A DNA stretch of 64,000 nucleotides from Bdellovibrio reynosensis (GTDB taxonomy: Bacteria; Bdellovibrionota; Bdellovibrionia; Bdellovibrionales; Bdellovibrionaceae): NCBI RefSeq assembly GCF_022814725.1, contig NZ_CP093442.1:1364001-1428000 (forward strand). The letters run 5' to 3'. Positions 5,145 through 60,665 of the stretch are shown piece by piece. The notes under the pieces are model-generated. The model saw only the letters and a program-made list of their open reading frames with translations, had not been told where the DNA came from and did not search any database. Position 1 is the stretch's first letter. Every line of letters starts with the position of its first letter. A program made the position numbers and the translations under genes.

Positions 5145-6428
5145 ATGCGCGACCTTGAGTTTACATCTAATGAAGCATTTAAAAAGAGACTTACCTACTT
5201 TAAGGTTATCTATGCATTGGGTGTTTCGGTCTGCTTAATCTACTTAGCTAAATACAATTTCGAATACAAAACCACAGAGTACAATCACGTCTTAATCCCC
5301 GGCTGGCTTGGTTTTGCCATCATTCCCCTTCTGATGATGAAGCTTACAAAGAACTTCCTTTGGTCAGCCTTAACCCTGTCGTTCTTTGCGATTGGGATGC
5401 TGACTTATCTTTTATATACAGCGGGCGGAGCTGAAGCTCCCGGAATTTTCTGGTTAGCTGCTGTGCCCTTGGTGCTTGGGGTTTTAATAGGATTGCCTGG
5501 TTCTTTAGCAGGATACATCATTGTTACCGTCATCATCACCGTCTTTTGGTGGCTGCATGTTTCTCGTATTGGGCCCAATGTGATTCACGATTACGGCAAT
5601 TATGAAAAGGAAAAGAGCTTTAATCTTATCACCTTCCTGCTGTTTTCATGCTTCACAACCCATCAATATATTAAGAGCGAAGAACGCCACCTGAAGCGCC
5701 TGCAAAAACAAAACAGCGATGTGGAAAACTTATTACGGGTCCTTATTCATGACGTGGCGAATACCTTGACTGGAATGACTTCAAATTTGTTACGCGCCAA
5801 AGAAGGGCCAAGGGCTTTTTCTAGTGTTGAGTTTGAGCGAATGGAAAAGGCTGTTGATGATATTCAAAATCTGCTTTCCCAAGTGCGACACCTTAAGTCA
5901 GTTAAAGATGGTAAGGCAGAGTTACCTTTAAAACCTCTATCTTTAGCTCTGGTCCTGAATGAAGTTTATGAGTCCACTCTTTCCCAGGCCCAGCGTAAGG
6001 GTATTAAGCTGTCTTTAGAACTCTCGCGGGATCGAATGATGATTAACGCCGAGCGAACGATACTAAGCAACGTAGTGCTGCTAAATCTGATGAGTAATGC
6101 CATTAAGTTTTCACATCCCGGCGAGCGCATTGACGTGCGGGCCTTTTCTAAGGACGAAGGGGTGATTGTTGAAATTCAAGATTATGGTATTGGCATTCCG
6201 ACTGAAATCTTAGAGCAAATCTTTAGTTTGCAAGCAAAGACCTCTCGCCCGGGAACCCAAGGGGAAAAAGGCACGGGTTACGGCATGCCGTTAGCCAAAG
6301 AGTATTTGCAGCTTATGGATGGCAGTCTTGAAATCCATTCGCAAATTGAGGCAACCCCAGACCGCCCGCGCGGGACTATTGTAAGGCTCAGACTTCCATT
6401 AGCGAAGGTGCATGCAGAGCCGTCTTAA
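5145..6428 (+). CDS. membrane-bound sensor histidine kinase
   Basis: Five or six hydrophobic helices fill residues 20-175, with no large periplasmic loop, so the signal may be sensed in or near the membrane. A linker helix leads to the dimerisation helix with phospho-acceptor H202 in LLRVLIHDVANTLTG. The ATPase domain shows the N box (LLNLMSNAIKFSHPGE), G1 (DYGIGIP) and G2 (GEKGTGYGMPLAKEY) motifs. No response regulator gene is adjacent, so it is an orphan kinase with an unknown partner. It lies 59 bases before the fibre gene, which shares the same upstream CCGATARG motif; a regulatory link between them is speculative. Confidence 0.9.
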   Translation: MRDLEFTSNEAFKKRLTYFKVIYALGVSVCLIYLAKYNFEYKTTEYNHVLIPGWLGFAIIPLLMMKLTKNFLWSALTLSFFAIGMLTYLLYTAGGAEAPGIFWLAAVPLVLGVLIGLPGSLAGYIIVTVIITVFWWLHVSRIGPNVIHDYGNYEKEKSFNLITFLLFSCFTTHQYIKSEERHLKRLQKQNSDVENLLRVLIHDVANTLTGMTSNLLRAKEGPRAFSSVEFERMEKAVDDIQNLLSQVRHLKSVKDGKAELPLKPLSLALVLNEVYESTLSQAQRKGIKLSLELSRDRMMINAERTILSNVVLLNLMSNAIKFSHPGERIDVRAFSKDEGVIVEIQDYGIGIPTEILEQIFSLQAKTSRPGTQGEKGTGYGMPLAKEYLQLMDGSLEIHSQIEATPDRPRGTIVRLRLPLAKVHAEPS

Positions 6429-6487: not shown

Positions 6488-9400
6488 ATGAAAAAACGGA
6501 ACGTATTTGCCGCGTTACTTCTTCTTTTTAGTCTGACTGCTTATGCCGTCCCAGGTTCTTTAACCTATCAAGGGCGCATTAAAGATTCTCAAGGGCAAGG
6601 CCTCGAAGTGAATGGTGTTGTTTTCGAATTCACCATCATGAATCCGACAGGCACTTGTGCACTTTATCGCGAAACTTCCAATGCGGTGGATATGCGCAAC
6701 TCTACGGGTGTGTTCGATGTTCCAATTGGCACAGGCACTAAGAACTTCCCTGCTGCGGCGGGCTTTAAACTTCTTGATAGTTTTGATAATAGCGCTGCCC
6801 TTTCTTGTGAAGGCGGCGGCACGTACACTCCCCTTGTTGATGACAAGCGAGTTTTACGTGTGCAATTTCATGATGGCACGGGTTGGAAATTAATTTCCCC
6901 TGACAGTGAGATTCGCTCTGTTCCTTTTGCGGGTCACGCCAAAGTAGCACAGACTGCTTTAAAACTTGGAAGCAATGTCGCAAGTGATTTTGTAGCGAAA
7001 TCTTCTTTGCCGGTTTGTGCGGCTGGCGAATATCTTCGTCATATTGCCCCTTCGGGAACTTTCGTTTGCTCGGCTCCTAGCGTACCCGGTGCAAATGTAA
7101 CTGGTAACATTGCTGGAAGCGCCGCAGGCTTTACTGGTTCGCTTGTTGGGGATGTCTCAGGAACTCAAGGCGCTACGAGTGTAGATAAGATCAAAGGTGT
7201 CACGGTCGATATGACTGGTATCGCCTCTGGTAAAGTTTTGAAATACGACGGGTCCAAGTGGGCTCCGGCGGATGATGCTGGCACTGCAGGAAGTTTGACG
7301 GGTTTGACTGGTGATGTGACTTCTTCAGGAAGTCCGGTGGCAACGGTCACTTTAGCTGATGGCACTGTTGCTACGGCGAAGATCGTTGATGGTGCTGTAA
7401 ATTCAGCAAAAATTTTAGATGCTACAATCGTCGACGCTGATATCGCTGCAGGTGCTGCAATTGTTGATACGAAACTTGCGACAATCTCTACGGCTGGGAA
7501 AGTTTCAGGCAGTGCGATTACTTCTGGAACTATCGCTGGCACTACTGCAATTAACACGAGTGGCTTAATTCAAACTTCAAACGGCTTCCGCGTTTATCAA
7601 GGTGCCAATTATGTAGAACTTAAAGCTCCTGCTGCTTTGGCTGGAGATTTAACTTTTAAACTTCCAGATACACTTGGCTCTAGTGGTCAGGTGCTGACTA
7701 ATAATGGTAGCGGAAATTTGACGTGGTCGACTCCGGCTGTGGGTTCGGTGACTTCTGTTTCAGCAAGTGCGCCGTTAGCTAGCAGTGGTGGCGCGACCCC
7801 GACGATTTCACTTTCAGATACGGTGACTGCAGGTACGGCGACTAAGATCACTTACAATGCGAAGGGTTTGGTTACTGGGGGAGCTTCTTTAGTTGCGGGT
7901 GATATTCCGAATCTAACTGGTGATGTGACTTCCACTGGTGGAGCTGCGTCTACGAAAGTCGTCAAAATTCAAAACGTCGGTGTTGTTTCTACGACGCCTT
8001 TAACGGGACAGGCTTTCCTTTTTGACGGTACTAATTGGGGTATCCAGTATTTTGGTTTTGGGCAAATGCGCTCGACAACTACGGGTAACTTGCAGATGCC
8101 GACTTCGTGTTCGACTGCTGACAAAACTTTGACTTGGTCAGCAATCACCGACACGTTTGCTTGTACGACGATTGCGATTGCCAATACTCAAGTTTCCGGT
8201 TTGGGAACGGCTTCAACTAAAAACTTTGGTACTTCTGCAGGTCAGCTAGTGGAACTTGATGGTGGCGCTAGAATCCCCGCTTCACTTCTTCCGGTTGCTG
8301 CCGGCGGAGTGCTTGTTGATGGCGGTAACACTACGGGTGCTGCGATTTCAGTTGGTGCTAACGATGACCATAGTCTTCTTTTAAAAACGAATAACGCCAC
8401 AAGGATCACGGTTGCGAATTCAGGAAATGTGGGCGTCGGTTATGGCAGTCCTGCTGTACAACTAGACGTTGCAAGCAAGGCGCGCGTAGTTGATGCTGCG
8501 ACAGCATATTTAATGATTAACGGTGATAGCGGAAACACCCAAGGCGATGCCGGTGAAGTGACTGGCGTTTTGGGGTTCGGCTCTGATGGCGCAAATACAG
8601 CCGGTGTTCCTGCCAATGGAATGACTTTAGAGCATTTGAATTTTGCCGGCACCCATGCTTTGGCTTTTAGACATTATAATGCAAGTACTATGGTTGAAAG
8701 AATGCGCATCAATAATGATGGTAAAGTAGGTATCGGTACTACTGCCCCTATTGGTACTTTAGATATCGTCGCAAACAACAGCAGCTATCTTCGTATTCAA
8801 CAATCTTCTGCCGATACCAATGCACCAGCTGTCGCATTTGCTAAATCTAGAGGAGATATAACGACTCCAGCAGCGGTTCTTTCTGGTGACCGCATCATGG
8901 GTCTTTATGGTCAGGCTTATCATTCCGGCAACGCCTTCACCGCTAATATCGCTGCTATTCAATTTCTTGCAGCGGAAAACATAACGGCTTCAGCACAAGG
9001 TAGCTCTATTGATTTTGGCACGACCCCAATTGGTTCAACTACTAGATCAACTCGCATGACCTTGGGACCAAATGGTTACTTGGGGATTGGACAAAGTTCG
9101 CCCGTAGTTCCATTGCATGTAAGATCAGCGCTAGCTACAACAGCTACTCATCCTTATCGCGCTGGTATTATCGCTGAAGGCGAAGGAACAGATGTGACAG
9201 GTCGAATCGGCTTAAAAACTTCAAGTGCGACTGAGTCCCCTGTTCTTTTGGGATATCGATCTCGAGGCACTATTGCTTCCCCTACCACACTCTCTTCGGG
9301 TGATGTGGTTTTATCTATCGTCGGAAGTGGTTACGATGGCACGGCTTGGTCGGCTGGTGCTAATAGTGGAGAAATGCATTTCGTTACGACGGAAGCGCAT

Positions 9401-10585
9401 TCAGCGACAAATCACGGTACTGCAATACTGTTTAAGACTATAGCTAATGGCACAAACACGAACGCAGAAACAATGCGAATAGATCATGATGGTGAAGTGG
9501 GTATTGGTACTTCATCACCGTCGGCGGCATTAGATGTCGCTAGAGATCAAGATAGCAACACCGCTGTTCGCGTAAGAAACTCTCACAACTCAGGTACTAC
9601 AGCTTATGCTAGTACAGCTGCTGAATCAGACGGATCAGCAATTGAAATGGTGGCTTACTCTACAACGCACACTGGGACATTTGGTACAGTTCCGATAGCA
9701 GACTCCGTAGCACTTCGCAGTTGGGCTGGTAAACCGACGAGCAATATGTTTGTGGGTACTGGATCCTCGGCACCACTGCATCTTGGAATTGCAAATACCC
9801 CAAGATTAACGTTTGCAACAAACGGCTACACGGGCCTTGGCACAACGACCCCGAATGGCCAACTTGATTTACAAGCAACCGGTGCCCACGAAATACGTTT
9901 CGGAAGCACAGGTATGAGTTCTACAAATAAAGATTTCAGAATCGTGCAAGATAATGCAGCTAACTTCACACGCCTTTCAACAGGTGGTGACACTTACACT
10001 TGGATGTCCTTCCAAATGGATACAGGCTTTGTAGGTATCGGAAATACAAGTCCGCAGTATACCTTAGATGTTACAGGAAACTTCCGTATCACAGGAACTC
10101 CGTACCGCAACGGTGGTGATATCGCATGGACTGTTCCTTCAGATAAACGCCTTAAAGATGTTACCGGCCAATATCAATATGGCTTAAAAGAAATCGCGAA
10201 TCTTGATGTCATCCGCTTCCGCTATAAAAACGGTAACGCGATTGGCGCAGAGACAGAAAAAGAATTCGTTGGAGTTTTGGCTCAAGAAGTACAAAAACAA
10301 ATCCCCGACGCCGTGAAATTGGAAAAGAACGGATACTTAAGCTTGAACAGCTCCCCTATTTTCTGGGCCCTAGTGAACTCAACAAAAGAGTTGAAGTTCC
10401 GCTGCGAATCCACTGAACAAAAAGTGGAAACTCATTCACGAATGATCGCAAGCCTGGTTGAAGAAAATAAAGAGCTAAAAGCGAAAGTGAAGAATACTGA
10501 ATCAGAAATGCAGAAGTTAAAAGCGGCGAATGATGATCTGAAAGCCCGCATGGATAAGATTGAAAGAATGCTTCTAAAGAAGTAA
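6488..10585 (+). CDS. modular fibre/adhesin with C-terminal S74 intramolecular chaperone (MAT-like)
   Basis: This 1365-residue exported protein starts with a signal peptide (residues 1-20, ending TAYA). Residues 21-160 form a domain shared with the gene at 59148-60665 (SNAVDMRNSTGVFDVPIGTG, SCEGGGTYTP, FHDGTGWK). The long middle is Gly/Ser/Thr-rich and phage-tail-fibre-like, with six copies of a GxVGIGxxSPxxxLDV motif at about residues 645, 748, 864, 1004, 1113 and 1181, each opening a module. From residue 1217, SDKRLKD begins a Peptidase_S74 domain; its Ser and the Lys five residues later match the self-cleaving dyad of endosialidase chaperones. A coiled coil ends the protein. The layout fits the mosaic adhesive trimer fibres of Bdellovibrio, which help recognise prey. 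The ligand is unknown. Confidence 0.85.
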   Translation: MKKRNVFAALLLLFSLTAYAVPGSLTYQGRIKDSQGQGLEVNGVVFEFTIMNPTGTCALYRETSNAVDMRNSTGVFDVPIGTGTKNFPAAAGFKLLDSFDNSAALSCEGGGTYTPLVDDKRVLRVQFHDGTGWKLISPDSEIRSVPFAGHAKVAQTALKLGSNVASDFVAKSSLPVCAAGEYLRHIAPSGTFVCSAPSVPGANVTGNIAGSAAGFTGSLVGDVSGTQGATSVDKIKGVTVDMTGIASGKVLKYDGSKWAPADDAGTAGSLTGLTGDVTSSGSPVATVTLADGTVATAKIVDGAVNSAKILDATIVDADIAAGAAIVDTKLATISTAGKVSGSAITSGTIAGTTAINTSGLIQTSNGFRVYQGANYVELKAPAALAGDLTFKLPDTLGSSGQVLTNNGSGNLTWSTPAVGSVTSVSASAPLASSGGATPTISLSDTVTAGTATKITYNAKGLVTGGASLVAGDIPNLTGDVTSTGGAASTKVVKIQNVGVVSTTPLTGQAFLFDGTNWGIQYFGFGQMRSTTTGNLQMPTSCSTADKTLTWSAITDTFACTTIAIANTQVSGLGTASTKNFGTSAGQLVELDGGARIPASLLPVAAGGVLVDGGNTTGAAISVGANDDHSLLLKTNNATRITVANSGNVGVGYGSPAVQLDVASKARVVDAATAYLMINGDSGNTQGDAGEVTGVLGFGSDGANTAGVPANGMTLEHLNFAGTHALAFRHYNASTMVERMRINNDGKVGIGTTAPIGTLDIVANNSSYLRIQQSSADTNAPAVAFAKSRGDITTPAAVLSGDRIMGLYGQAYHSGNAFTANIAAIQFLAAENITASAQGSSIDFGTTPIGSTTRSTRMTLGPNGYLGIGQSSPVVPLHVRSALATTATHPYRAGIIAEGEGTDVTGRIGLKTSSATESPVLLGYRSRGTIASPTTLSSGDVVLSIVGSGYDGTAWSAGANSGEMHFVTTEAHSATNHGTAILFKTIANGTNTNAETMRIDHDGEVGIGTSSPSAALDVARDQDSNTAVRVRNSHNSGTTAYASTAAESDGSAIEMVAYSTTHTGTFGTVPIADSVALRSWAGKPTSNMFVGTGSSAPLHLGIANTPRLTFATNGYTGLGTTTPNGQLDLQATGAHEIRFGSTGMSSTNKDFRIVQDNAANFTRLSTGGDTYTWMSFQMDTGFVGIGNTSPQYTLDVTGNFRITGTPYRNGGDIAWTVPSDKRLKDVTGQYQYGLKEIANLDVIRFRYKNGNAIGAETEKEFVGVLAQEVQKQIPDAVKLEKNGYLSLNSSPIFWALVNSTKELKFRCESTEQKVETHSRMIASLVEENKELKAKVKNTESEMQKLKAANDDLKARMDKIERMLLKK

Positions 10586-10902: not shown

Positions 10903-12573
10903 CTAAACCATCTTAAAGCGAATACGTTTAGGCCCAGCATTCTCGCCAAGACGTTTTTTGCGGTCTTCTTCGTATTCAGAGAAGTTTCCTGGGAAGAACT
11001 CAATCTTAGAGTCCCCTTCAAACGCCATGATGTGCGTGCACACGCGGTCTAAGAACCAGCGATCATGCGAAATCACTACGGCAGATCCACCGAATTCAAG
11101 CAACGCTTCTTCAAGCGCACGCATCGTGTTTACGTCTAGATCATTTGTTGGCTCATCCAGAAGCAATAAGTTTGCACCTTGTTTAAGGATCTTCGCCATG
11201 TTTACGCGGTTTCTTTCTCCACCGGATAACTGACCGACTTTTTTCTGTTGGTCTGTTCCAGAGAAGTTAAACCAAGAAACGTACTGACGAGCATTGATTT
11301 CACGTGTTCCTAATTGGATCACGTCTGCTCCGCCAGAAAGTTCTTCATAAATAGTTTTGTTTGGATCCAAGGTCTCACGGGTTTGATCGACGTAAGCGAT
11401 CTTCACCGTCTCACCTACTTTGAATGAACCGCCATCTGGAGATTCCTTCCCCGTGATCATGCGGAATAAAGTCGATTTACCCACACCGTTCGGTCCGATA
11501 ACACCCACGATAGCCCCTTTTGGAATCGTGAAGCTCACGTTATCCAAAAGAACTTTGTGGTTGTAAGCCTTCGTGATGTCTTTAGCTTCGACAACGATGT
11601 CACCCAAACGAGGTCCTGGTGGGATGTAAATAGACATCTCTTGGATTTTTTCTGGCGATGCTTCTTTTAACAAGTTTTCGTAGTTAGAAATACGCGCCTT
11701 AGATTTTGCCTGACGAGCTTTAGCCCCTTGGCGAATCCAATCCAACTCTTTTTCAAGAGTCTTAGCTTTACGAGCTTGGTCCTTTTGTTCGTTCGCTGTG
11801 CGTTTGTCTTTTTGTTCAAGCCAAGACGTGTAGTTCCCTTTCCAAGGAATACCTTCACCGCGATCAAGTTCTAAGATCCAACCAGCAACGTTATCTAGGA
11901 AATAACGGTCATGCGTAACCGCAATAACTGTCCCTGGGAACTTAGAAAGATATTGTTCAAGCCAAGCCACTGATTCCGCATCCAAGTGATTCGTTGGCTC
12001 ATCCAGTAATAAAATATCTGGCTCAGACATAATCAAACGAGCCAAAGCCACACGGCGTTTTTCACCACCTGATAGATTTGTTACAGGCAAATCGCCATCT
12101 GGACAGCGAAGTGCATCCATCACGATTTCGATCTTCTGATCGACATCCCAAGCTCCCAAAGCTTCCAATTTTTCCTGGATGGCACCTTGTTTTTCGATCA
12201 GCTTGTTCATTTCATCCGGATCCAAGTCAGGATCGCTGAACTTATCATTGATGGCGTTATATTCTTTCATCAACTTTGGAAGTTCGCCCATGCCAGCAAA
12301 GATGTTTTCTTTTACCGTCAAAGTCTCATCCAACTGAGGTTCTTGTTCGAAGTAACCGACCTTCATCGTCTTAGATGGGAAGGCTTCACCCAAGAAATCC
12401 TTATCTACCCCTGCCATAATTCTAAGCAAAGTGGATTTACCAGAGCCGTTTAGACCCAAAACCCCGATTTTGGCGCCATAAAAGTAAGAAAGATAAATAT
12501 CCTTCAGCACATATCTTTGTGGAGGATATACTTTACTTACGCCCTTCATTGTGTAGATAATCTCTTGAGACAT
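10903..12573 (-). CDS. ettA: energy-dependent translational throttle protein, ABC-F ATPase
   Basis: ABC-F proteins have two ATPase domains and no membrane segment; EttA binds the ribosomal E site and gates the first peptide bond according to ATP/ADP level. The 556 residues match EttA length. Domain one has Walker A LGLNGSGKST and signature LSGGEKRRVALARL with DEPTNHLD; domain two has GPNGVGKST, QLSGGERNRVNMAKIL and DEPTNDLD. The linker carries the Lys/Arg-rich P-site-tRNA-interaction stretch (WIRQGAKARQAKSKARI). The start YTMKGVSKVYPPQ is diagnostic of EttA. AGGAG precedes the ATG. The stop codon nearly touches a long inverted repeat. Confidence 0.96.
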   Translation of the reverse strand: MSQEIIYTMKGVSKVYPPQRYVLKDIYLSYFYGAKIGVLGLNGSGKSTLLRIMAGVDKDFLGEAFPSKTMKVGYFEQEPQLDETLTVKENIFAGMGELPKLMKEYNAINDKFSDPDLDPDEMNKLIEKQGAIQEKLEALGAWDVDQKIEIVMDALRCPDGDLPVTNLSGGEKRRVALARLIMSEPDILLLDEPTNHLDAESVAWLEQYLSKFPGTVIAVTHDRYFLDNVAGWILELDRGEGIPWKGNYTSWLEQKDKRTANEQKDQARKAKTLEKELDWIRQGAKARQAKSKARISNYENLLKEASPEKIQEMSIYIPPGPRLGDIVVEAKDITKAYNHKVLLDNVSFTIPKGAIVGVIGPNGVGKSTLFRMITGKESPDGGSFKVGETVKIAYVDQTRETLDPNKTIYEELSGGADVIQLGTREINARQYVSWFNFSGTDQQKKVGQLSGGERNRVNMAKILKQGANLLLLDEPTNDLDVNTMRALEEALLEFGGSAVVISHDRWFLDRVCTHIMAFEGDSKIEFFPGNFSEYEEDRKKRLGENAGPKRIRFKMV

Positions 12574-55289: not shown

Positions 55290-55371
55290 AGGTTAATTCC
55301 TCCTGCAAAGGAGCGTATTTAGGCACATGAAGAGTTACCAATAACTTTTAGGAAATGTGTGGGAAGTCAGT

Positions 55372-56811
55372 ATGTTTACGGATCTTAATATTTCAAGCTG
55401 GATACTGTCTAAATCCTTAAGTCTTTCTTACTTCATTGCATTCCTATCTTTGCTGCCGCAAGTGCTAGGGCTTTACGGGCACAATGGTATTTTGTCCATC
55501 GATCACCTTTTAAATCTGTTAGATAAAGAAATGCGGGCAGAGCGATTCTATCATGTCCCAAGTCTTTTCTGGCTTTACTCTTCGGATCTAGCACTGAAAG
55601 GCATGTGCTTTATCGGAATGATGGCAGCCTCGCTTTCGTTTTTAGGATTTAGTCAAACATGGATGTTATTGATCTGCTTTCTTGCTTACTTAAGTTTTGT
55701 AAGTTGCGGGCAGGTGTTCTTAGGTTATCAGTGGGACAGTCTGCTTTTAGAATTTGGATTTATCGGACTTTTCTTTGGGCCGTTAAAATGGGAATGGATT
55801 CCGCTAGGCGCCTATGCGATTCATCCGTTGATTTATGTTTTATGTTTGTTCTTGTTGTTTAAGCTGATGTTTTTATCTGGCGTCGTAAAACTGACCAGCA
55901 AAGATCCGGTGTGGAAAAATCTGACGGCATTAACCTATCACTATTGGACTCAACCCCTGCCAAATCCCATCGCTTTTTTTGCTGATAAGTTGCCTTTACA
56001 CTTTCAGCGCTTTTCCACTTTGATCATGTTTTTTACAGAGATTGTAGCGCCGTTTTTTATTTTTATTCCAGGTCCTACACAAGTATTAGCCGTGATCTTT
56101 TTAGCGGGCCTGCAGGTTTTAATTCTGCTAACGGGGAATTATGCATTTTTTAATCTTATCACCTTGGGACTTATTTTCGGGGTTCTGCCCGATTCGGTGT
56201 GGGGTTTTAAGATTAATTGGGTTGAAACAACCACGATACCAACGTGGGCTGCAGTTTTTGCGGCGGTTTTACTTATTCCCTCTTCAGTCTTTTGGATTTA
56301 CAAAAGTATTTTTGAAAACGACAAGAAGTTGGATTTCATGCTGCCGCTTTTAAGACTGCTTTACCCATTTCGCATCTCAAATCCCTATGGGCTTTTTGCG
56401 GTGATGACGAAAACTCGCCCCGAGTTGGTTTTAGAAGGCAGTAACGACGGCATACATTGGGAAGAATACGAATTTAAGCATAAACCAACTTCACTAAAAC
56501 GAATGCCACCCATTGTGGCCCCTCACCAACCGCGACTGGATTGGCAGATGTGGTTTGCGGCTTTAGAAAGTTTCAACGACAACCTGTGGTTGCAAAACTT
56601 GATGACACGCATTTTTCAGCAAGCTCCGGATGTTTTAGCTCTGTTTGAAAAAGATCCTTTTAAAGGAAAATCGCCGAAGGCTTTACGTTTAATCAAGTAT
56701 CACTATAAGTTTGCGACGTGGGAACAATGGCGCAAGCAAGGCATTTGGTGGCAACGAGAGATGGTTGGCTTTTACGGGCCCACTTTTCAGATCGAAGAAT
56801 TTGTTGAATAG
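55372..56811 (+). CDS. lipase maturation factor (LMF) family membrane protein
   Basis: Eight or more hydrophobic helices form the N-terminal 300 residues. The family-specific segments include LGYQWDSLLLEFGFIGLFFG, LTYHYWTQPLPNPIAFFADKLP and NYAFFNLITLGLIFG, as in the LMF1 family of lipase maturation factors. The C-terminal soluble part (WLQNLMTRIFQQAPDVLALFEKDPF) is the conserved domain of that family. In animals LMF1 aids folding of secreted lipases. The bacterial role is unknown. The start is uncertain between ATG 55372 (MFTDLN) and an in-frame GTG at 55357 that follows AGGA. Confidence 0.85.
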   Translation: MFTDLNISSWILSKSLSLSYFIAFLSLLPQVLGLYGHNGILSIDHLLNLLDKEMRAERFYHVPSLFWLYSSDLALKGMCFIGMMAASLSFLGFSQTWMLLICFLAYLSFVSCGQVFLGYQWDSLLLEFGFIGLFFGPLKWEWIPLGAYAIHPLIYVLCLFLLFKLMFLSGVVKLTSKDPVWKNLTALTYHYWTQPLPNPIAFFADKLPLHFQRFSTLIMFFTEIVAPFFIFIPGPTQVLAVIFLAGLQVLILLTGNYAFFNLITLGLIFGVLPDSVWGFKINWVETTTIPTWAAVFAAVLLIPSSVFWIYKSIFENDKKLDFMLPLLRLLYPFRISNPYGLFAVMTKTRPELVLEGSNDGIHWEEYEFKHKPTSLKRMPPIVAPHQPRLDWQMWFAALESFNDNLWLQNLMTRIFQQAPDVLALFEKDPFKGKSPKALRLIKYHYKFATWEQWRKQGIWWQREMVGFYGPTFQIEEFVE

Positions 56812-56928: not shown

Positions 56929-59151
56929 ATGTCTGATGAATTTTTAGATCTTGAACGTCGGAATTTCCTTGAGTCAGTCGCAAAAGGCGTGATCGGTTTA
57001 TCCACCACCGCATTCTGGGCGAAGGCTTCTTCACTGGGTTTGTTGTCGCTGGTTCCGAATGAAGCAGATGCGCAGATGATTCCGCATGGCGCTTGGAAAA
57101 GACGAACCATCAAAGGTGCGTTTGCCTGGGGCTCAAATTCTAATTTTTCATTTGGTAACGGCAGCGGACCATCTACATCATCGCCAGTTCATATTGGTGC
57201 CAACTGGTCACATATTTCAGCGAATACAAATTCAGCATTGGGAATAAAATCAGATGGCAGTCTTTGGGGCTGGGGAGTTAATCCTAATTTTCAGCTGGGT
57301 GATGGAACGAACACAGCTAGGTCTTCTGCTATTCAAATTGGAAATGAGACAAATTGGTTATCAGTGGATGCAGGAAGCTATCATACCGTAGGCATAAGAA
57401 ATGACGGGACTCTTTGGGGTTGGGGTACCAACATCTATGGCGCAATAGGAATTTCCACTGCTGTTCCCAATCAGGTCAACGCTCAATTAGACTGGGCGGA
57501 CATTGCTTGCGGCACGAATCATACACTTGCAATTAAGGCTGATGGCACATTGTGGGGATGGGGATGGAATGCTTTTGGAATAATTGGTGACGGAACTTCA
57601 ACAAATAAACTTTCTCCGACTCAGATAGGGACGTTGACTAACTGGCAAAAAATTTCCGCTGGATATGCGCATTCGCTTGCAATAAAGACGGATGGCAGTC
57701 TTTGGGCTTGGGGAAATAATAATAACGGCGCACTTGGCGACAACACGACTACAAGCAAGTCTTCGCCAATTCAAATTGGAACTCCTCATATATGGACAAA
57801 AATATCTACTGGCCAATCTTTTTCAATGGCTATTAAAAATGATGGCTCGTTGTGGACCTGGGGCTATAATTCCGTGGGGCAATTAGGCGATTTTACAACT
57901 ATAGATAAATCAATACCCACTCAAGTAGGAACAGCTACAAACTGGTCAAAGATTGCTTCAGGCTATTCCCATAGTTTAGCAATTAAATCTAACGGAAGTC
58001 TCTGGAGTTGGGGATCTAATGTGAATGGACGGCTCGGTCTGGGTGATACACTTGATAGATCTTCTCCTATTCAAATTGGCGTTTTGACAAACTGGAGTCA
58101 TATTAGCGGCGGACTTCATTTCTCATTAGCTCTACGAAATGACAATATGTTGTATGCTATGGGTGAGATCAACAACAGCATATCTCCAGTCGCTGTCGGC
58201 GCTTTACCTGTATGGAGTACGATGTCAGCGGGACATCAGCACGCTCTGGCGATAAAAACTGACGGAAGTTTGTGGGCTTGGGGATATAATAATAGTGGAT
58301 GTATAGGTAACGGAATGACCGGTGGCAGTTATTCTTCTCCTATTCAAATTGGCGCATCGTTAACGTGGTCAAAAGTAGCTGCAGGCTTTAGGCATTCAGC
58401 AGCAACAAAATCTGACGGCAGCTTGTGGGTGTGGGGAGAAAATGATTATGGCCAAGTGGGGGTTCTCTATAAAAGTCCAACTCAGGTCGGCGCGCAAAAC
58501 GATTGGGCCTTCATTTCCTCAGGAAGCTCACACACATTGGCGTTAAAACAAAATGGAAGTCTATGGGGTTGGGGATCTAACGGTTTGGGGCAAATTGGTA
58601 ATGGGTCAGCCGACACCGTTCCTACACCCTGGATGATAAATGCAGGTCCATGGCTTGACTGCAGTGCTAGCGCTAGCCATTCCTTAGCCGTCAAAGCCGA
58701 CGGTACATTGTGGACGTGGGGTTACAATGCAAGCGGACAACTAGGAAATAACGGAACTGCCACTTCTCTAAGTCCCATGCAAATCGGAACTTTAACAAAC
58801 TGGAGAAAAGTATCAGCAGGCGCAAGTCATTCCCTCGCTGTCAAATCAGATGGAACCATCTGGGCATGGGGCGCAAATTCTAACGGCCAACTTGGCGATG
58901 GAAGTACAACAAATAGGTTGTCCCCCGTATTCTTAGGACCAAATACTCAATGGAAAATTGTAAGTGCTGGCGCAGACTTTTCACTCGGTTTAAGGGAAGA
59001 TGGCTCTTTATGGGGATGGGGCACAAACACGAGCGGTCAATTGGGCCATGCGCCGATCACCAACCGGAGTTCGCCAGTACAAATAGGAACTTTGACCCAT
59101 TGGGATAAAATTTTTTCTGGAACTTCGACTGGTTTTGCAATTACGACCTAA
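56929..59151 (+). CDS. Tat-exported RCC1-repeat protein
   Basis: The N-terminus LERRNFLESVAKG with Arg-Arg at residues 10-11 is a twin-arginine signal, with likely cleavage after A48 (ADA-Q). The remainder has fourteen RCC1-type repeats of about 50 residues, each with a SLWxWGxN core and a SSPIQIG or SHSLAIKSDG segment. Fourteen repeats would make two seven-bladed propellers; the eighth (MLYAMGEI) is degenerate. The protein is probably folded before export and surface exposed or secreted. It converges with the fibre gene, overlapping by a few bases. GGAGG precedes the ATG, and its promoter lies in a palindrome. Ligand unknown. Confidence 0.88.
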   Translation: MSDEFLDLERRNFLESVAKGVIGLSTTAFWAKASSLGLLSLVPNEADAQMIPHGAWKRRTIKGAFAWGSNSNFSFGNGSGPSTSSPVHIGANWSHISANTNSALGIKSDGSLWGWGVNPNFQLGDGTNTARSSAIQIGNETNWLSVDAGSYHTVGIRNDGTLWGWGTNIYGAIGISTAVPNQVNAQLDWADIACGTNHTLAIKADGTLWGWGWNAFGIIGDGTSTNKLSPTQIGTLTNWQKISAGYAHSLAIKTDGSLWAWGNNNNGALGDNTTTSKSSPIQIGTPHIWTKISTGQSFSMAIKNDGSLWTWGYNSVGQLGDFTTIDKSIPTQVGTATNWSKIASGYSHSLAIKSNGSLWSWGSNVNGRLGLGDTLDRSSPIQIGVLTNWSHISGGLHFSLALRNDNMLYAMGEINNSISPVAVGALPVWSTMSAGHQHALAIKTDGSLWAWGYNNSGCIGNGMTGGSYSSPIQIGASLTWSKVAAGFRHSAATKSDGSLWVWGENDYGQVGVLYKSPTQVGAQNDWAFISSGSSHTLALKQNGSLWGWGSNGLGQIGNGSADTVPTPWMINAGPWLDCSASASHSLAVKADGTLWTWGYNASGQLGNNGTATSLSPMQIGTLTNWRKVSAGASHSLAVKSDGTIWAWGANSNGQLGDGSTTNRLSPVFLGPNTQWKIVSAGADFSLGLREDGSLWGWGTNTSGQLGHAPITNRSSPVQIGTLTHWDKIFSGTSTGFAITT

Positions 59152-60665
59152 TATCCCGGAATCCAAGTTACATAGACGTGAGTGCCAGACACAAGAAGTG
59201 AATAGAGCGTATGTTTGGAAGGGATCGTAGGACCATGATCAGGCGGCATATGCATAGTGAGTGCAGTCGACCCTGCATCAGAAAATGCTAAGAACGAGCA
59301 AGTCGTTGATGAAGCTCCCTGTACGATGAACGAATAGGATCCACCATCTTTTATATTGTGAAAAGTAAAAGCACCGCAGCTTGATGTGGTTGAAAAAAGA
59401 TTTCCATTAGCAAAATCAATGGTAGAACCTGCAACTGAAGTTGTGGATTTCATAAGAAGTGCATTAGAAATCTTTACGGTTCCAGATTTATCTATATTTA
59501 CCCGTGTTGTCCCATCGGTAACCAGATTCAACGTTTGAAAACTCGAAGTGCCCACAGTCATTGTTGCAGCGGAAGAATTACCTCCATCTATCACTGCAGT
59601 GCTTGGCAATACACTTTGACTCAAAGTCCCCGAAGTAATCAGCCCCGCAGAAATATTAGATATACCCAAATTCCCCGCCGTCACATTCAGTGGCGCAGAA
59701 ACACCCAAAGCAGTGTAAGCCCCAGCACCCGTGCGCTGAACAATCCCCGTTAACGCAATCCCGGCAATGCCGTTCAACTCTGCATTTGAATTTTGCTTCC
59801 CATTAAAAGTCGACCAATCTGCTTGGGTTAAGTAACCATCAGTAACAGCGGACGATGCAGTCATATTCACCACCGGATCGGTGGCGCTGCCCGTTATTGA
59901 TAACGGCGGATTTGCACTGACTGAATTCACTGAACCACCACCACCTGCCGCCGCAGCGGCGCAGACCCAACCTGTGCCAGTGGTGTACTTCAATGTTTCG
60001 TTGTTATTACAAGCAACCCCATTTGGCTTATAATCAAAATATTTTCCAGCCGCACTGATCAATTTATCAACCGATAATCCTGCCAAAAAACCGTCAGCAA
60101 CAGAATTGGAACAACTTACCGTCGTGCCATCAAAATTAAGAATTGAACCAGCACCGCAACCAACGCCAGGTTTTGTTAATAGATCAGAAGCGGCAAGTTC
60201 CCCGACTTTACCAGCACGATGGGCATACATCGACTGCCCGATGGGACGTAAAGGAACGGTCGAAGTAAAAGTTTTCCACCCTGTCCCATCATGAAATTTA
60301 ATTTTTAATAAATAAGGATTCGTTCCTGCAGGAGTATAAGTTCCCCCTCCATCGCACGAAATGCTTGAAGCAGAGCTATTGAACACATCCAAAAGACTTC
60401 CACCAAACCCCACCGTTCCCGTTCCTAAAGGATGTTCAAATAATCCATCGGATGAAGATAGATCATAGACTGCACTTTGCTCGCGATAAAGAACACATGT
60501 TTCGGCTGGATCATAAACACTGAATTCAAATGCAACGGTTGCAGAATTTAACACACTTCCATCCGGCTTGAACAAACGACCACTGATGGTCATCGAATTC
60601 GCCACAGCCAAAGCCGACGAAGCAAACAAGCTTAATATTAAAGTGGTTAAAAATGCCTTCATCAC
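59148..60665 (-). CDS. secreted fibre-like protein sharing the N-terminal domain of the large fibre
   Basis: A signal peptide (about residues 1-20, ASSALAVA) is followed by a domain that aligns with residues 21-160 of the 6488 fibre: CVLYREQSAVYDLSSSDGLF, HPLGTGTVG, SCDGGGTYTP, FHDGTGWKTF. The middle is tail-fibre-like (YLTQADWSTFNGKQ, VIDGGNSSAATMTVG, also shared with the large fibre). It lacks the S74 chaperone: the C-terminus (TTSSCGAFTFHNIKDGGSYSF, HVYVTWIPGY) is a different beta-rich domain, probably binding or capping. It is 42 bases downstream of a lipoprotein gene on the same strand. Confidence 0.8.
   Translation of the reverse strand: MMKAFLTTLILSLFASSALAVANSMTISGRLFKPDGSVLNSATVAFEFSVYDPAETCVLYREQSAVYDLSSSDGLFEHPLGTGTVGFGGSLLDVFNSSASSISCDGGGTYTPAGTNPYLLKIKFHDGTGWKTFTSTVPLRPIGQSMYAHRAGKVGELAASDLLTKPGVGCGAGSILNFDGTTVSCSNSVADGFLAGLSVDKLISAAGKYFDYKPNGVACNNNETLKYTTGTGWVCAAAAAGGGGSVNSVSANPPLSITGSATDPVVNMTASSAVTDGYLTQADWSTFNGKQNSNAELNGIAGIALTGIVQRTGAGAYTALGVSAPLNVTAGNLGISNISAGLITSGTLSQSVLPSTAVIDGGNSSAATMTVGTSSFQTLNLVTDGTTRVNIDKSGTVKISNALLMKSTTSVAGSTIDFANGNLFSTTSSCGAFTFHNIKDGGSYSFIVQGASSTTCSFLAFSDAGSTALTMHMPPDHGPTIPSKHTLYSLLVSGTHVYVTWIPGY

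Follow-up and report, generated by a model that had tools for sequence, protein, structure and literature searches.

A Bdellovibrio reynosensis ortholog of the Bd1334 fiber with a probably exchanged C-terminal tip

Predatory Bdellovibrio bacteria touch their prey with surface fibers of the mosaic adhesive trimer (MAT) family. The closest described relatives of the protein examined herein are the MAT fibers of B. bacteriovorus HD100, where 21 MATs are present, 13 with an S74 domain and 8 without, and where a conserved beta-rich domain follows the signal peptide in every member (PMC10769870). Tagged MATs were shown to be displayed on the surface, and self-cleavage of the S74 domain at S782 was demonstrated for Bd3182 (PMC10769870). 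Two other members, Bd1334 and Bd2133, have a common shaft and different tips (PMC10769870). Several roles have been proposed for MATs, with Bd1334 being placed at the flagellar pole, and deletion of single MATs causes no or only small defects in predation, that of bd1334 being without significant effect (PMC10769870). Because single deletions barely affect predation, a prey-recognition role of the present fiber may be hard to show.

The window analyzed here is a stretch of 64,000 nucleotides from B. reynosensis. Within it, an open reading frame with an ATG start occupies exactly positions 6488-10585 (+) and codes for 1365 amino acids. With a probability of roughly 0.85, the best explanation of the locus as a whole is that this gene is the chromosomal ortholog of Bd1334 with an exchanged C-terminal tip, and that its product would form a trimeric fiber whose S74 end cuts itself off. 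The parts of the gene and its two flanking genes are as follows.

5145-6428, + strand: histidine kinase gene, left flank; HATPase_c 74 bits; matches in 19 of 24 genomes
6488-6547, + strand: signal peptide, aa 1-20, MKKRNVFAALLLLFSLTAYA, assigned by eye
6548-7027, + strand: MAT N-terminal beta-rich domain, about aa 21-180
7028-8422, + strand: repetitive shaft, about aa 181-645; 60-85% identity with most slot orthologs up to about aa 600
8423-8719, + strand: module 1, aa 646-744, first motif GNVGVGYGSP; nearest relatives at most 41% identical, none close
8720-9073, + strand: module 2, aa 745-862, first motif GKVGIGTTAP; best match another MAT of genome G004 (61%)
9074-9490, + strand: module 3, aa 863-1001, first motif GYLGIGQSSP; 42-45% to Bd1334-slot orthologs and one own-genome paralog; within the match to 8OML
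9491-9823, + strand: module 4, aa 1002-1112, first motif GEVGIGTSSP; best match an S74 MAT of G003/G006 (57-58%)
9824-10024, + strand: module 5, aa 1113-1179, first motif GYTGLGTTTP; predicted part of the mature tip; 46% to a G003 MAT
10025-10138, + strand: neck, aa 1180-1217, first motif GFVGIGNTSP; contains a TPYRNGGD insertion; 60-82% to tips from outside the genus
10139-10318, + strand: S74 chaperone-protease, aa 1218-1277, with Ser1218 (10139-10141) and Lys1223 (10154-10156); predicted cut between Ser1218 and Asp1219
10355-10582, + strand: C-terminal coiled coil, about aa 1290-1365; a single unbroken helix in the structure model, pLDDT about 98
10903-12573, - strand: ABC-F ATPase gene, right flank; orthologs 94-97% identical in 22 other genomes of the genus

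A sequence-only reading of this DNA had proposed a MAT fiber with a signal peptide, six GxVGIGxxSP modules, and an S74 domain with a Ser-x4-Lys dyad, and these proposals hold up well. The signal peptide was recognized by eye, and its Ala20 is kept in all 15 MAT N-termini that were aligned. Six cap motifs are indeed present (aa 646, 745, 863, 1002, 1113, and 1180), of which three are near the consensus and three are degenerate. The Pfam Peptidase_S74 model matches aa 1218-1277 with 39-45 bits (cut-off 22), and the sequence SDKRLK from aa 1218 leaves the SDxxxK signature intact and gives Ser1218 and Lys1223 the expected Ser-x4-Lys spacing. The N-terminal domain, the cap motifs, the S74 domain with its SDxxxK, and matches to solved MAT fibers together bear out the assignment to the family. 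In the first 200 residues, Bd1334 is 77% identical and 13 other MATs are 31-63% identical. The best solved relative in a PDB search is the Bd1334 fiber 8OML (E 4e-34, aa 829-1099), a match far beyond chance, and 8OND is matched as well. This protein, which fits the MAT family on every feature testable from sequence, is a further member of an already described family; given the description of that family in 2024 (PMC10769870), it is to be regarded as a new member of a known family. In the genome as a whole, the MAT N-terminal domain is found 20 times and S74 is matched 13 times.

Elsewhere in the window, positions 59148-60665 (-) encode a second, short MAT of 505 aa that lacks S74, in which the N-terminal MAT domain is found with E 2e-48 and Pfam gives no match. 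Its end overlaps by 4 bases with a gene on the opposite strand (56929-59151, +) whose product, of 740 aa, is matched 12 times by the RCC1 repeat. A homolog of lipase maturation factor (LMF1) is encoded at 55357-56811 (+).

The chromosomal position of the gene ties it to Bd1334. A MAT gene lies between the histidine kinase and ABC-F genes in the genome studied (G000) and in G001, G004, G007, G019, and G021. The slot protein of G001 is Bd1334, identical to 8OML over 334 of 334 aligned residues, and for this reason we take G001 to be HD100. In G018, the two genes further upstream, a DnaJ-like gene, and the ABC-F gene are all present (72-96% identity) and the kinase is absent; G017 has the same upstream neighbors, and its contig ends before ABC-F. 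Since the flanking kinase is absent from both of these loci (L044 in G018 and L046 in G017) with the genes on either side in place, the gain of the MAT may have been accompanied by loss or replacement of the kinase. In G008, the MAT is seen beside the ABC-F flank only. The two marker genes adjoin each other with no MAT between them in 12 other genomes, as judged from coordinates (six were read directly).

Both the flanking genes and the shaft are those expected of a Bd1334 ortholog, and the Bd1334-type tip without S74 is absent. The gene is an ortholog of the Bd1334 shaft that carries another tip. A tree of the shafts places this one within the slot family, with the G019 slot gene as its nearest row (92/86). 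Two constrained trees escape formal rejection: one that forces the shaft together with the S74 MATs of its own genome (p-AU 0.07), and one that gives the two shaft relatives with S74 tips a single origin (p-AU 0.12). The slot of G021 holds two tandem MATs (L043, 1879-5958 and 6026-8722, -), one of them with S74; the latter shares 70% identity over 932 aa with a MAT of G003/G006, which likewise adjoins a slot-type MAT.

One might instead regard the gene as a prophage or phage tail fiber unrelated to predation, given that phage tail fibers often contain S74 domains and GIG repeats and that 76 phage records match the tip. We consider this very improbable. The protein has a signal peptide and a MAT N-terminal domain, and the gene sits between two chromosomal genes and has the same neighbors in other species. 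Moreover, the phage matches to the tip are weak, at 25-43% identity among the matches listed, compared to 55-64% in other Bdellovibrionales. A recent phage origin of the tip was also considered and rejected, as identity is at most 43% among the phage matches listed and extends over short stretches.

The Bd1334 ortholog differs from its slot relatives chiefly in what lies at its C-terminal end. None of eight such relatives (G001, G004, G007, G008, G017, G018, G019, and G021) has an S74 domain at this position; among them, four or more other kinds of tip occur. A Bd1334-like tip is present in G001 and G019 (40% identical), a Cys-rich RMTVCSY type in G004, G007, and G021 (41-89%), and a Fibrinogen_C tip in G018 and G017, while G008 has another type. 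By parsimony, the change at the slot would have run from a tip without S74 to one with S74. Identity to most slot orthologs falls from the level of the shaft to about 20-50% in modules 646-1001. This bears out only in part the expectation of the sequence-only reading that the middle modules differ strongly between strains and define binding, as the most variable part proved to be the C-terminal tip. Clear homology to Bd1334 ends near aa 1017, shortly after the cap motif that starts at aa 1002, and no clear counterpart follows; this break is one of the protein alignment only, the DNA of the gene being too diverged from its orthologs to reveal a cassette boundary of its own.

The nearest relative also changes along the protein, from the G019 slot gene for aa 1-645 to tips from outside the genus for aa 1197-1300 (62-70%). 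Because the module limits were set at the motifs beforehand, this comparison speaks to the different kinship of the parts rather than to exact junction positions. Across loci, tips are mostly conserved, and S74 status agrees in 67 of 67 reciprocal MAT pairs, which are not independent and come from the close genomes G003/G006, G013/G015, and G001/G004/G007. Among S74 MAT pairs at loci other than the slot, the stretch of 150 aa that precedes the cleavage site has a median identity of 0.90 versus 0.89 for the middle; this stretch is not systematically more variable, although a module within it is replaced in some pairs. In G004, two MAT N-termini occur in short frames (L159, 8867-10024, -, 385 aa; L161, 451-1614, +, 387 aa) whose relatives are about 1370-1570 aa long, and these frames represent either broken genes or sequencing errors.

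The S74 tip more probably came from outside the genus. By alignment, the tip belongs to the subclass of Bd3182, and the nearest tips are those of Ca. B. qaytius, Pseudobdellovibrio MAGs, and other Bdellovibrionales, with 55-64% identity over aa 1177-1325. Tips of the same subclass from the genus Bdellovibrio reach at most about 50%. A TPYRxGGD-type insertion is common to this tip and most of the nearest outside tips, and is lacking from the genus tips of the subclass. In a tree of the tips, this one and those of other genera and MAGs form one side of a branch with support of 100/100. It is also conceivable that the S74 tip descended vertically in the genus and disappeared from its other members, and a tree that groups it with the tips of the genus passes the AU test (p-AU 0.146). 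We regard such inheritance as less likely, because the best tree sets the tip apart with other genera and MAGs on the fully supported branch, and because the insertion is absent from the genus tips of the subclass.

Two particular donors were considered and set aside. The tandem S74 MAT of G021, considered as donor of the tip, is only 28% identical. An S74 MAT of G003 suits module 4 (57-58%), but as a single donor of the C-terminal half it fails, since the neck and S74 domain are nearer to others.

How tips might be exchanged is seen in two pairs of genes that are still similar at the DNA level. The MAT genes of G003 and G006 (L102 and L119) are about 90% identical up to codon 606, and identity resumes 9 bases past one stop codon and 15 bases before the other. 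Likewise, the genes for Bd1334 and its G004 counterpart are 84% identical to codon 992 and then 86% identical from about 100 bases past the stop. Both swaps have clean edges, with a GIG cap motif at the start and the vicinity of the stop codon at the end. The idea that change-points fall at GIG motifs as a general rule was rejected, as the association is not significant over all 109 change-points of orthologous MATs (9 near a motif versus 5.8 expected, p 0.12). When restricted to divergent blocks of at least 60 aa, a GIG motif is near in 9 of 43 cases versus 3.4 expected (p 0.005), and shaft repeats are near in 10 of 43 versus 2.1 expected; this restricted test is exploratory, since its size filter, its wider tolerance, and its repeat pattern were all picked with the first result already in view. 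A role of the GIG motif as an exchange junction is a lead. A broader proposal, which we put forward tentatively and hold to be somewhat less than an even bet, is that one slot with one MAT shaft carries at least five interchangeable tip types, including a switch between S74 and non-S74 tips, that the S74 tip came from another genus, and that tips are traded as DNA cassettes beginning at a GIG motif that serves both as structural cap and as exchange junction.

The C-terminal 276 aa were modeled as a monomer using 57 related sequences (mean pLDDT 83.5). The S74 part of the model matches a solved S74 domain with the intramolecular chaperone fold, namely the MyRF ICA 7DC3 (Foldseek E 5e-06; VIA Z 8.3, rmsd 2.9, 116 residues), and resembles the endosialidase chaperone 3GW6 (VIA Z 5.3). 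The beta part, corresponding to the module 5 region, resembles Bd3182 tips (VIA Z 6.1-6.3 over about 60 residues). Z values below 8 are weak alone, and those from this predicted model agree with the sequence.

Given that the S74 domain has the lowest Pfam score of the 13 in this genome (45 bits), it could be degenerate, in which case no cleavage would occur and the coiled coil would stay on the tip. This seems improbable to us, because SDxxxK is intact, because all eight residues that are invariant across 58 S74 sequences are present, and because Bd3182, a member of the same subclass, does cleave (PMC10769870). The end of the tip is probably self-cutting, and we infer cleavage, trimer formation, and binding from what is known of Bd3182 and the MAT family.

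Under the reading favored here, the chain would be exported and, as a trimeric fiber, be held on the predator surface by its conserved N-terminal domain, with the shaft presenting the variable tip. The S74 intramolecular chaperone would template folding of the trimer and then presumably cut itself off between Ser1218 and Asp1219, which would leave the beta-helix (about aa 1113-1217) exposed as the binding end of the mature fiber. This tip may bind a prey glycan or another surface epitope. Over longer times, tips at the slot would change as cassettes, such that the shaft stays and a new portion takes over from roughly the GIG cap motif up to the neighborhood of the stop codon.

The same fiber might have a job other than prey recognition, such as a later role at the flagellar pole or in a vesicle, or stabilization of the predator inside its prey. 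The several roles proposed for MATs, the polar location of Bd1334, and the lack of a significant predation defect upon bd1334 deletion speak for this option (PMC10769870), which we consider a serious one, albeit not the more probable. Recognition would predict a conserved shaft whose tips change, but handling of varied prey would predict the same.

The locus bears on how a limited set of fibers lets a predator cope with many prey surfaces. Of interest here is an S74-tipped counterpart of a non-S74 fiber at the same chromosomal site, a natural example of tip exchange in a known family. S74 and non-S74 MATs have been treated as two subgroups, and they can replace each other at one locus. The slot orthologs constitute natural matched pairs, and because they share position and shaft and differ in the tip, differences in binding between purified tips would be assignable to the tip.

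Among known systems, Bd1334 of HD100 (8OML, 8ON4) occupies the same slot and has the same shaft (54% identity over aa 1-1017), but ends in a flat beta-sandwich tip without S74, whereas the protein described here has further modules and an S74 tip. Bd3182 (HD100; 8OJN, 8ONB, 8ONC) shares the S74 subclass (35% over about the last 280 aa), the SDxxxK signature, and a beta-helix tip between two cap motifs; it differs in its shaft and locus and in the absence of the TPYRNGGD insertion, and its two caps are separated by a longer stretch. Bd2133 (HD100; 8OND) is related in its shaft and its beta-helix modules, with about 48% identity over aa 1-934, yet lies at another locus and carries a beta-sandwich tip without S74. 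The S74 tips of Ca. Bdellovibrio qaytius, Pseudobdellovibrio MAGs, and other Bdellovibrionales are the closest found, but are borne by other proteins. Finally, the MyRF ICA (7DC3), the endosialidase chaperone of phage K1F (3GW6), and the L-shaped tail fiber of T5 (4UW8) share an S74 or intramolecular-chaperone fold, although they are not MAT fibers.
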